33,078 nucleotides of DNA from Ruminococcus sp. (GTDB lineage Bacteria; Bacillota; Clostridia; Oscillospirales; Ruminococcaceae). The translations under genes were made by a program, and so were the position numbers. Below are positions 10,758-27,238 of the stretch, piece after piece. The notes under the pieces are model-generated. The model did no database searches, had not been told where the DNA came from, and was given only the letters and a program-made list of their open reading frames with translations. The DNA is taken from NCBI GenBank assembly GCA_024403995.1, contig JAKSQT010000021.1, forward strand, positions 1-33,078. The letters run 5' to 3'. Within the stretch, counting starts at the first letter, position 1. Each line of letters opens with the position of its first letter.

Positions 10758-11795
10758 TTATGTCTCTGTATCTTCCGATATATCATCATCGTCCTCACCC
10801 GACATAAGAGAAGATATTTTCTGTGTCAGGTAATCGACATAAGGAATGATCTTTTTATAGTCAACTCTCATAGGGCCTATTACTCCGAGAGAACCGACTT
10901 CCTTGCCGCCTTTGCGGTATTTTGAGACTATCAGGCTTGAATTGCCGATAGCGAATGTATTATTTTCCTGACCGAACTTTACCTGAATGCCGCTGAAGGT
11001 TTCTTCAAGCAGTTCGGAGAGACCGTTTTTGTGTTCAATAAAGCGGACGACCTCCATTTTGTCAAGCTCCTCGCAGGAGAGCAGTTTTTCGCTGCCGCTA
11101 ACGGTAAGCTCCTGTTGGCGCAGGTCTTCGGAGAGTTCGCAGATGCCCTTGACAAGCGGTGAAAGAGACACCATGTAGGCACTGACTGCGGCGACCATTT
11201 TATCGAACATTTCCTCGGAAAGCTCCTCAACGGAAACGCCGCTGAGATTTTCCTCTATATAATGAGTAAAGAAATCGAGCTGTTCGTGATTGAGGTCAAA
11301 TTCAAGGCGGCAGGCTTTGTTTTTGATACTGCCGTTTGAGGTAATGAGGAGAATGACATAGAGTCGTTTGCCTGTTGGTATTACCTCAACTTTTGATATG
11401 ACCGAGAAGCGTGGAACGGAATTTGTTACCACAGCCGCACACTGAGTAATTTCGGTGAGGGCGGCGGCGGCATTCTGAACGAGAAGTTCTTCGGGAGTAT
11501 CCTTTCCGCCGAGCATTGAGTCGATTTTTGATTTTTCGTCATCAGAGAGTGAGGGGAGAGTCATAAGCTCATCGATATAGAGTCTGTAGCCCTTGAAAGT
11601 GGGGACACGGCCGGCCGATGTATGGGGCTGTTCGAGATAGCCGAGCTGTTCAAGAGCCGCCATGTCGTTGCGTATGGTAGCGGCGGAGACTTTGATATTA
11701 TCGAGCTTTGAGATCGCTTTGGAGCCGACAGGTTCGCCTGTTCTGACATATTCGTCAACGATTGCGGCGAGAATTTTCAGTTTTCTTTCGTCCAC
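10758..11795 (-). CDS. hrcA: Heat-inducible transcription repressor HrcA
   Basis: About 345 aa. Repressor of class I heat-shock genes that binds the CIRCE operator and needs GroEL for activity in other Firmicutes. The N-terminal winged-helix domain shows the family signature ILAAIVDEYVRTGEPVGS and the YLEQPHTSAGRVPTFKGYR segment; a GAF-like middle and dimerisation region follow. The frame is open back to a GTG at 11825, which lies inside the CIRCE operator. The GTG at 11795 (VDERKLKIL) has AAAGG 10 nt upstream and matches family N-termini, so it is preferred. First gene of the operon, autoregulated. Confidence 0.95.
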   Translation of the reverse strand: MDERKLKILAAIVDEYVRTGEPVGSKAISKLDNIKVSAATIRNDMAALEQLGYLEQPHTSAGRVPTFKGYRLYIDELMTLPSLSDDEKSKIDSMLGGKDTPEELLVQNAAAALTEITQCAAVVTNSVPRFSVISKVEVIPTGKRLYVILLITSNGSIKNKACRLEFDLNHEQLDFFTHYIEENLSGVSVEELSEEMFDKMVAAVSAYMVSLSPLVKGICELSEDLRQQELTVSGSEKLLSCEELDKMEVVRFIEHKNGLSELLEETFSGIQVKFGQENNTFAIGNSSLIVSKYRKGGKEVGSLGVIGPMRVDYKKIIPYVDYLTQKISSLMSGEDDDDISEDTET

Positions 11796-11818
11796 GACCT
11801 CACGACCTTTCACAATCT

Positions 11819-11845
11819 TTAGCACTCTAACTCTTTGAGTGCTAA
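11819..11845 (-). promoter_or_regulatory. CIRCE operator
   Basis: Perfect consensus TTAGCACTC (11819-11827), 9-bp spacer, GAGTGCTAA (11837-11845). It lies just downstream of the hrcA promoter, so HrcA binding would block transcription of hrcA-grpE-dnaK-dnaJ. Confidence 0.98.
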
Positions 11846-11965: not shown

Positions 11966-12215
11966 AAAGGACAGCCGCAACTGTCCTTTCAGCGTGTCAA
12001 AAAACTTATTTGGGGACGTCGAGGACGCCGTCCCCTACAAATGCATTAACGAAGAATAGCTGAATTGTAGGGGCTGGCGGTCTCACCTGTCGGCTCGGTC
12101 GGTGCTTCTGCGTTGCAGAGGTATCCACTGGATACCCGCACCCTCGACAGCCCTTGTTTAACGAAATAATTTCGACTTTTTAAACAGACTGAAAGGACAG
12201 CCGCAACTGTCCTTT
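11966..12215. repeat. Duplicated terminator hairpin flanking element A copy 2
   Basis: The same 24 bp (AAAGGACAG...CTGTCCTTT) stand at 11966-11989 and 12192-12215 as a perfect direct duplication around element A. Each copy is itself a complete hairpin with a 7-bp or longer stem. On the minus strand the distal copy is followed by TTTTGTTTTG, so it is the functional intrinsic terminator of mscL. The proximal copy has been separated from that T-tract by the element. Confidence 0.9.
11990..12191 (-). mobile_element. Element A copy 2, with the 63-bp loop module
   Basis: 202 bp, in the orientation opposite to copies 1 and 3. The ends read CAGACTG (12185-12191) and CAGCGTGTC (11990-11998) and are imperfect inverted repeats of the form CAGNNTGTNNAAAAA. 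It contains two TGTAGGGG hairpins. In one of them the loop holds a 63-bp insert (12080-12142) that starts GTCTCACC and ends CGCACC; without it the copy would equal the 141-bp form. The insert carries its own stem GGTATCCA/TGGATACC. No coding potential. Together with its flanks this explains the non-coding stretch between hrcA and mscL. Confidence 0.85.
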
Positions 12216-12229
12216 AATTTACATATGTA

Positions 12230-12652
12230 TTACTTCTTCTGCTTTAAGAGGTCTCTGATCTCTGTAAGGAGAACTTCTTCCTTTGACGGCTCAGGAGCTT
12301 TCGGAGCTTCTTCTTCTTTTTTCTTCTTGCCTACTGACATAGCCTTGTTGATAGCCTTGAGGAGGCAGAAAAGAATGAGGGCAATGATGATAAAATTGAG
12401 GACTGACGAGAGGAACGAACCGTAGTTGAAGTCGATGCCTTTGATGGTGAATTTTCCGCCGACGAGCTGCATAACGCCGTTTTCGTCCTTTTTCGCACCG
12501 CCTGTGATTACAGCGATGAGTGGGTTGATGAAATTATCGGTGAGCGAGCTTACGATATTTCCGAAAGCCGCACCGATGATAACACCGATAGCCATGTCCA
12601 TTACATTGCCTTTGAGGGCAAACTCTTTGAATTCCTGTAAAAACTTCTTCAT
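12230..12652 (-). CDS. mscL: Large-conductance mechanosensitive channel MscL
   Basis: 140 aa. Homopentameric inner-membrane channel that opens on membrane tension during osmotic downshock. The amphipathic N-terminal helix (MKKFLQEFKEFALKGNVMD) is followed by transmembrane helix 1 with AIGVIIGAAFGNIVSSL, a periplasmic loop, transmembrane helix 2 (about 77-100), and a Lys/Glu-rich cytoplasmic helix ending LLKQKK. An earlier in-frame ATG at 12670 overlaps the ribosome binding site; AGGAGAAG is spaced for the ATG at 12652, which also matches family N-termini. Monocistronic, with a terminator interrupted by element A. Confidence 0.97.
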   Translation of the reverse strand: MKKFLQEFKEFALKGNVMDMAIGVIIGAAFGNIVSSLTDNFINPLIAVITGGAKKDENGVMQLVGGKFTIKGIDFNYGSFLSSVLNFIIIALILFCLLKAINKAMSVGKKKKEEEAPKAPEPSKEEVLLTEIRDLLKQKK

Positions 12653-12818
12653 TTTTACTTCTCCTAACATAAAAATTCTTATCCCGTTCAGAAGAAGTAC
12701 ACATCCTATCCGAATAAACCTTATGTGAAATATTGGTAGATCTGCGGAAATGCGTACATTTCAGCTTGTCGGGAAATATATCTGAGAAAACACATAAGTG
12801 TTTCTCTTTGATACAGTA

Positions 12819-14787: not shown

Positions 14788-14969
14788 CAGTCTGTTTAAA
14801 AAGTCGAAATTATTTCGTTAAGTGACAAGGGAGTCCGAGGGCGGACTCCCCTACGTCATATTAATATCCCGACACAAAAACGTAGGGGATGCCGGTCTCA
14901 CCTGTCGGCTCGGTCGGTGCTTCTGCGTTGCAGAGGTATCCACTGGATACCCGCACCCTCGGCATCCCC
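14788..14969 (+). mobile_element. Element A-related outer copy, interrupted
   Basis: It starts with CAGTCTGTTTAAAAAGTC, like element A, then a GGGAGTCCG/CGGACTCCC hairpin, an AATATCCCGACAC linker and a GGGGATGCC hairpin whose loop holds the 63-bp module (14895-14957). A second, complete element A follows directly. The reciprocal right end of this outer copy is not recognisable. The segment from 14864 on is the same as the repeat cut by the window start. Confidence 0.75.
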
Positions 14970-15110
14970 CAGTCTGTCGAAAAAGTCGAAATTATTTCGT
15001 TAAGCAAGGGCTGTCGAGGACGCCAGCCCCTACAATTCAGCTATTCTTCGTTAATGCATTTGTAGGGGACGGCGTCCTCGACGTCCCCAAATAAGTTTTT
15101 TGACACGCTG
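14970..15110 (+). mobile_element. Element A copy 3 (141 bp), nested
   Basis: Same length and order as the copy at 24576-24716: CAGTCTGTCGAAAAAGTC end, GGGCTG/CAGCCC hairpin, TTCAGCTATTCTTCG linker, GGGGACG/CGTCCCC hairpin, TTTTTTGACACGCTG end. It is flanked on the left by a GGGGATGCC...GGCATCCCC hairpin carrying the 63-bp module and on the right (15112-15136) by the same hairpin without it. This looks like insertion into that hairpin with duplication of the hairpin. The rest of 14574-15368 holds promoter signals only. Confidence 0.88.
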
Positions 15111-24575: not shown

Positions 24576-24716
24576 CAGTCTGTTTAAAAAGTCGAAATTA
24601 TTTCGTTAAACAAGGGCTGTCGAGGACGCCAGCCCCTACAATTCAGCTATTCTTCGTTAATGTATTTGTAGGGGACGGCGTCCTCGACGTCCCCAAATAA
24701 GTTTTTTGACACGCTG
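24576..24716 (+). mobile_element. Element A copy 1 (141 bp)
   Basis: Reference form of the element. Left end CAGTCTGTTTAAAAAGTC, then an ATTATTTCGTTAAACAAG stretch, a GGGCTG/CAGCCCC hairpin, the TTCAGCTATTCTTCG linker, a GGGGACG/CGTCCCC hairpin and the right end GTTTTTTGACACGCTG. The ends are imperfect inverted repeats. It is sandwiched between two copies of the same terminator hairpin. No open frame of interest; too small to be autonomous. Confidence 0.88.
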
Positions 24717-27162: not shown

Positions 27163-27238
27163 CTTATTTGGGACGTCGAGGACGCCGTCCCCTACAGCCC
27201 TTGTTTAACGAAATAATTTCGACTTTTTAAACAGACTG
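27163..27238 (-). mobile_element. Element A copy 4, internally deleted
   Basis: It keeps the CAGTCTGTTTAAAAAG end (on the minus strand) and one GGGACG/CGTCCCC hairpin. The sequence jumps from the first hairpin's CCCCTACA straight to the GCCCTTGTTTAACG arm of the second, and the opposite CAGCGTGTC end is missing. It occupies the gap between rluA-type and luxS genes and so forms part of the luxS upstream region. Confidence 0.8.

Follow-up and report, generated by a model that had tools for sequence, protein, structure and literature searches.

What places a 202-bp element inside the terminator of mscL, with a complete terminator hairpin on either side of it? We followed up this question for the window, i.e. 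the whole 33,078-nucleotide stretch of DNA that was analysed (contig JAKSQT010000021.1), which belongs to a Ruminococcus sp. genome (G000; 2.58 Mb, 179 contigs, 86% complete), in the following called the source genome. According to our analysis the element, termed element A, is very probably a non-autonomous element (MITE) of the IS1182 type which, on transposing into the terminator of mscL, duplicated the complete hairpin as its target site. This degree of confidence applies to the part of the reading that comprises insertion at many hairpins, duplication of the hairpin as a whole unit, the matching insertion sequences (ISs), the empty alleles with one hairpin and a duplication length set by the dyad.

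Element A in the mscL terminator

Two identical 24-bp copies of AAAGGACAGCCGCAACTGTCCTTT, each with a 9-bp stem, are located at positions 11966–11989 and 12192–12215 with a start-to-start spacing of 226. The 202 bp between them (11990–12191, plus strand) constitute element A, which starts with CAGCGTG and ends with CAGACTG. Its terminal repeat A (CAGCGTGTCAAAAAACTT..., 11990–12011, plus strand) resembles IS ends such as CAGTCTGTCAAAAAAGGT, and terminal repeat B (CAGTCTGTTTAAAAAGTCGAAA, 12170–12191, minus strand) resembles the IS ends CAGTCTGTCGAAAAAGTC. Element A carries no gene. It represents the long form of the element; a stretch of about 62 bp (12080–12141, plus strand) is absent from a 141-bp form, copies of which match only positions 1–90 and 153–202.

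The terminator belongs to mscL (12230–12670, minus strand; NCBIfam TIGR00220, 122.1 bits, cut-off 71), and hrcA (10758–11825, minus strand; NCBIfam TIGR00331, 294.4 bits, cut-off 197.2) is its downstream neighbor on the same strand. Read along the minus strand, mscL is followed by the adjoining hairpin (12215–12192), element A, the distal hairpin (11989–11966) and, beyond it, hrcA. The distal copy continues into TTTGTTTTGTC, its own last three bases also being T, and is presumably the working terminator. The copy adjoining mscL runs directly into CAGTCTG, its T-tract being replaced by element A. A preliminary description of this locus had placed the element between two perfect copies of the hairpin and had assigned the minus-strand T-tract to the distal copy only, and both statements agree with the positions given here.

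Since the insertion leaves two complete hairpins, one of them with a T-tract, the terminator is expected to keep working. Termination of mscL and insulation of hrcA should thus survive the insertion, and the predicted transcript end adds element A to the 3' end of mscL. With termination kept, terminators would be a harmless landing place, and on present evidence element A is a parasite whose landing rule is harmless.

The 250-nt span formed by element A and both hairpins folds into one long, imperfect stem (z = -9.25; 0 of 200 shuffles equally good), mainly because the two hairpin copies and the ends of element A can pair mutually. This stem is a predicted fold, from which its formation in the cell does not follow. 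No Rfam family matched in the window at gathering scores. Before hrcA we noted an inverted repeat, TTAGCACTC...GAGTGCTAA (11819–11845), which we take to be CIRCE-like, and a TTGACA promoter-like site (11878–11850, minus strand).

The MITE family in the source genome

A search of the source genome with element A gave 88 full or partial matches, including six near-full copies of 202 bp and about twenty copies of 141 bp without positions 91–152. The family is multicopy and short and has constant ends, as is typical of MITEs. A script that required both ends retained 24 copies; L006 and L026, in which the A end is damaged, were left out of this count, and inspection of L026 by eye revealed a 25-bp hairpin repeat with one mismatch. 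The genome-wide tabulation of flanks that had been proposed in the preliminary description yielded a duplicated hairpin, i.e. a target-site duplication at the ends of the MITE, for 20 of the 24 two-ended copies. In nineteen of them the script detected a direct repeat of 15 bp or more (18–32 bp); the twentieth (L004) was recognized by eye from its 32- and 33-bp copies with a one-base difference in the loop. The hairpin sequence varies from site to site and the core is constant. At least five of the 19 repeats are imperfect, and one copy of the hairpin at L017 is no longer a good hairpin, which speaks against the main reading.

The other two-ended copies are L022, which is flanked by two different hairpins, L013, which is nested in the hairpin of another repeat, and L023 and L024, both on a 3.2-kb contig (G000:C22) and both without hairpin duplication. 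With one-ended copies included, a stem of 7 or more pairs adjoins 50 of the 58 distinct MITE junctions, compared to 348 of 2950 random positions; eight of the 58 junctions failed this stem test. L024 failed it on both sides and L023 on the A side, the latter having a mere 11-bp repeat with one mismatch.

Further family members are found in the window. A 141-bp copy nested in another repeat (14970–15110, minus strand) has a whole GGGGATGCCG-type hairpin on one side and the same hairpin, interrupted by the 62-bp stretch, on the other. Another 141-bp copy (24576–24716, minus strand) is flanked on both sides by GGGAGAACA...TGTTCTCCC hairpins with identical stems and loops that differ at three positions. 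The B end of a damaged copy (27217–27238, minus strand) abuts a short hairpin, GACGGCTTTGCCGTTTTTT, with 6 pairs, which is below the 7-pair limit used. The stretch of about 62 bp (GGTCTCACCTGTCGGC...CCGCACC) at 12080–12141 and at about 14895–14956 is in both places embedded in the loop region of a hairpin, the two hairpins being different; sequences overlapping it match at 79–92% in several genomes of the genus. It may be another small mobile repeat, one that likewise inserts into hairpins, but into the loop.

The B-end pattern, with up to one mismatch, was absent from 59 other genomes. Looser homologues of the element occur in the sibling species G105, G044, G017 and G052.

IS1182-family relatives and empty alleles

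A search of the source genome for PF13751 gave no match. NF033551 gave six weak matches (E-values of 6e-6 and worse), which were rejected as partner transposases, all of them being below the cut-off. Because the source genome contains no IS1182 transposase over the cut-off, we infer the partner IS only indirectly; a partner that is no longer present, or that resides in a region missing from the assembly, is the probable source of the transposase. In related genomes, the ends of the PF13751 transposase loci L063, L067, L070 and L076 differ from the B end of the MITE by 2 of 19 bases, so that end B has its terminal repeat in common with autonomous members of the IS1182 family. Four of 27 such PF13751 loci have direct repeats of 28–35 bp that are whole hairpins. 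All five related transposases tested scored over the NF033551 cut-off, which assigns them to the IS1182 family (NCBIfam), and their ends are of the type CAGTCTGTCGAAAAAGTC.

Scanning genome contigs with the aligned sequences of these five transposases confirmed at least 572 relatives, of which the best 80 were fetched. Both ends were found in 69 of these best 80. Whole-hairpin direct repeats of 18–39 bp flank 45 of the 69 two-ended relatives and are perfect in 37 cases. Nine loci have two different hairpins (assigned by eye), as expected after recombination between copies. In the rest of the 69, also sorted by eye, one end lies at most 44 bases from a contig end (nine loci), one end is ambiguous (five loci) or the sequence is masked (one locus); the masked locus (L164, masked N) was left out of the 46 repeats of at least 15 bp. 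Among the IS junctions with enough flank (from the best 80 of at least 572 relatives), 122 of 126 abut the foot of a hairpin with at least 7 pairs, compared to 364 of 2743 random positions, and at a threshold of 8 pairs the numbers are 111 of 126 and 179 of 2743, respectively. Four low junctions (L105 twice, L128 and L155), which are probably misassigned ends, were kept in the count. The best 80 loci are not all independent: L158 and L077, L096 and L070, and L147 and L064 are the same records, and several loci come from one genome.

With a duplicated whole hairpin, varying by site, at 20 of 24 MITE loci and at 45 of 69 IS loci (from the best 80 of at least 572 relatives), the earlier suggestion that the mobilizing enzyme recognizes hairpin DNA is strongly supported.

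Seventeen more distant IS1182 members were picked by hand, 15 from 431 matching plasmid records and two from 14 phage records; one further locus, L229, was retrieved but left out of the analysis. Whole-hairpin repeats were found in twelve of them, including members from Cetobacterium, Sutcliffiella, Providencia, Rhizobium and Salinivibrio. Two members (Sinorhizobium and Bradyrhizobium, 27–28% identity) have GGGG ends and 5-bp repeats, and the repeat class of three (L218, L220 and L235) was left unassigned. In a tree of 69 rows, the hairpin duplicators run through the clade with CAG ends, interspersed with the two-hairpin rows; the pair of rows with 5-bp repeats branches apart. The deep branches of this tree are modestly supported and some rows sit on long branches. 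Rows whose open frames were short were left out of it (three of the 45 duplicators, three of the nine two-hairpin loci and L221). Seven rows labelled "other" are loci without assigned ends, of which L066 is placed, weakly supported, inside the CAG-end clade and L081 probably reflects a wrong reading frame. We met the IS1182 clade in Bacillota, Pseudomonadota, Fusobacteriota and one MAG labelled as Chloroflexota.

In phage Javan87, a 26-bp hairpin is present on either side of a 1538-bp IS1182 element. Phage Javan90, with flanks identical to those of Javan87 over 130 and 150 bases, contains one hairpin, and the lengths of the two records differ by exactly 1564, the sum of 1538 and 26. Plasmid pELF_AA94 contains a 25-bp hairpin twice, around an ISEfa7-type element; in the stretches compared from three related plasmids, with flanks slightly different from pELF_AA94, this hairpin occurs once and there is no IS. 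One hairpin in the empty alleles means that the hairpin was duplicated at insertion and was not present in two copies beforehand. Judged from these records, the hairpin is a true target duplication at two IS insertions, a statement that concerns the ISs and not the MITE. As findings that would speak against it, the preliminary description had listed empty sites already containing two hairpins and element copies without hairpin flanks. The former were not seen at the two IS sites; the latter do exist, namely L023 and L024 among the 24 MITE copies.

For element A itself, an orthologous empty mscL–hrcA site was not found among the relatives' rows examined, because hrcA and mscL are kilobases apart or on different contigs in these relatives. 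Their mscL terminators have other sequences than that of the source genome. We compared the mscL 3' regions of ten distinct relatives by eye (G044:C21 repeats G044:C49). Most of them have a single hairpin with a T-run behind mscL and no element directly after it; in G105 and G044 a related element lies farther downstream of mscL, between imperfectly repeated hairpins, and the region of L198 was ambiguous on inspection. A clean empty site was not found for the MITE family, and the one near-identical allele pair, L201 and G000:C179, was rejected as such since both alleles are rearranged by other repeats. The contig carrying L201 (G052:C62) is 97–100% identical to G000:C179, although G052 is assigned to a different species of the genus. 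Misbinning or a very recent transfer may account for this. In a sibling species (L074, G001:C12:1–1612), a terminator-like hairpin immediately upstream of hrcA is abutted by an IS1182-type end, which suggests an independent hit on a terminator before hrcA.

Proposed mechanism and relation to known systems

The length of a target-site duplication is normally near-constant for a given transposase; for the IS1182 family, ISfinder gives repeats that vary in length and reach about 60 bp. In our set, the repeat is centred on the hairpin dyad in 39 of 45 ISs (from the best 80 of at least 572 relatives) and in 18 of 19 MITEs. On average, 7.2 (ISs) and 7.3 (MITEs) of the 8 outermost positions are paired, a value that drops to 2.3–3.8 when the frame is slid by 1–10 bases. 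In MITEs the repeat stops close to where the palindrome ends: the edge positions pair in 15 of 19 repeats, the next positions outward in 6 of 19. For the same ISs the edge is softer: the edge positions pair in 30 of 45, and in 26 of 45 the palindrome continues beyond the repeat by one complementary pair or more, so that the two do not always end together. As far as these comparisons go, the duplication length follows the dyad of the target.

We propose the following course of insertion. A DDE transposase of the IS1182 family would recognize the junction of an extruded palindrome (cruciform), and on either strand the hairpin's 5' foot would be joined to one of the two 3' ends of the transposon. 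These 5' feet are a whole hairpin apart along the linear DNA and would be close together across the four-way junction. Gap repair would then copy the hairpin onto both sides. The cruciform step with joining at the 5' feet represents the simplest geometry, and on this step our judgment is evenly divided. Inverted loops between the two hairpin copies were observed at L142, L158 (identical to L077) and L201 (AGAT/ATCT, AAGATT/AATCTT and TTTTGAAAAA/TTTTTCAAAA), the first two being ISs and the third a MITE copy at a rearranged locus. These three cases are too few to build on. They count against the main reading, because simple gap repair does not give a loop inversion; copying or resolving a hairpin can leave one.

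The same targeting could instead act on single-stranded hairpins, either on the lagging strand or in the bubble of terminating transcription. This variant, which is compatible with those parts of the main reading to which our higher confidence applies, is possible but rather unlikely. Such hairpins form easily, and most targets look like transcription terminators, with a T-rich tail at 34 of 45 IS sites (from the best 80 of at least 572 relatives) and at 18 of 19 MITE sites. Duplication of the whole hairpin, however, would require both strands to be joined at two feet, which a hairpin on one strand would not offer by itself.

A long, fixed staggered cut at sites that happen to be palindromic is very improbable. 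IS1202-type elements have a long, near-constant duplication of about 27 bp, and our duplications have a mean of 27.0 bp, but they range from 18 to 39 bp and are centred on the dyad. Even the five copies in a single Chakrabartyella piscis genome have duplications of 22, 23, 25, 31 and 35 bp. This variation, overall and within one genome, contradicts a fixed stagger.

It is still less credible that the hairpins belong to the mobile unit or were spread by homologous recombination between identical terminators. Terminators of similar sequence do recur in the source genome (e.g. CCGCAC-type and GGACAG-type hairpins), but hairpin sequences vary by site next to a constant core, and empty alleles have one hairpin, the Javan87/Javan90 pair contradicting this explanation. 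Acquisition of the second hairpin only later, an ordinary insertion being followed by replication slippage or by selection restoring termination, would fit the expectation that two hairpins keep termination but would leave unexplained both the perfect repeats at the two junctions in 37 of 45 ISs (from the best 80 of at least 572 relatives) and the position of the junctions at hairpin feet, and can be set aside to the same extent.

Returning to transposition with duplication of the target hairpin, we suggest with intermediate confidence that in a large IS1182 clade the DDE transposase reads a four-way junction and not a sequence. The target, rather than the enzyme, would therefore determine the duplication length, the deletion seen with IS1272 would be the mirror case with joining at the 3' feet, and the loop inversions would be scars of a hairpin intermediate. 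That the duplication length tracks the secondary structure of the target allows structure-guided transposition to be put to a direct test, and pairs of occupied and empty alleles are natural evidence for an enzyme that reads palindromes as hairpins or cruciforms. It also explains how the elements can spread through terminators without breaking genes, each insertion leaving two whole hairpins and usually one T-tract.

Class C group II introns likewise insert beside terminator hairpins, but by RNA-based retrotargeting downstream of the stem and without hairpin duplication. The ISEfa7-type copies L219 and L222 (PLSDB annotation) resemble the elements described here in having hairpin repeats, 22 and 25 bp long, on both sides; their ends are of the type CAGACTGTAGACAAA. 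Unlike the MITE, these ISs are autonomous, with a transposase about 47% identical. MITEs from the archaeon Methanosarcina have been assigned to the IS1182-family partner ISMac2, which is a parallel to element A; their direct repeats, in the part of the source covered, are small (read as 4 and 0 bp) and not whole hairpins (PMC3852290). In a literature search carried out mostly at title and abstract level, with ISfinder and TnPedia outside its scope, we noticed no report of whole-hairpin duplication, and the passages covered of PMC10383233 and PMC12540322 contain nothing on hairpin duplication.

IS1272/TnSha1 from Staphylococcus uses a transposase of the same family and, according to the parts covered of PMC4923244 and PMC5678879, also targets hairpins, which have no common sequence and several of which are confirmed terminators. 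There the hairpin is partly deleted or replaced and no target duplication is formed (PMC4923244, PMC5678879). The present elements, in contrast, do not lose the hairpin but duplicate it whole, at 20 of 24 MITE and 45 of 69 IS sites (from the best 80 of at least 572 relatives), IS1272 being compared by its published description only. Duplication of a whole stem-loop is drawn as pathway b of the model in PMC5678879 (Figure 13), as a hypothetical route and without examples in the text covered; the same text credits Siguier et al. with a mention of palindromic targets but no detailed data. Hairpin targeting by an IS1182-family element was thus already known, and what appears new, as far as this literature search goes, is the duplication of the whole hairpin, with natural examples.
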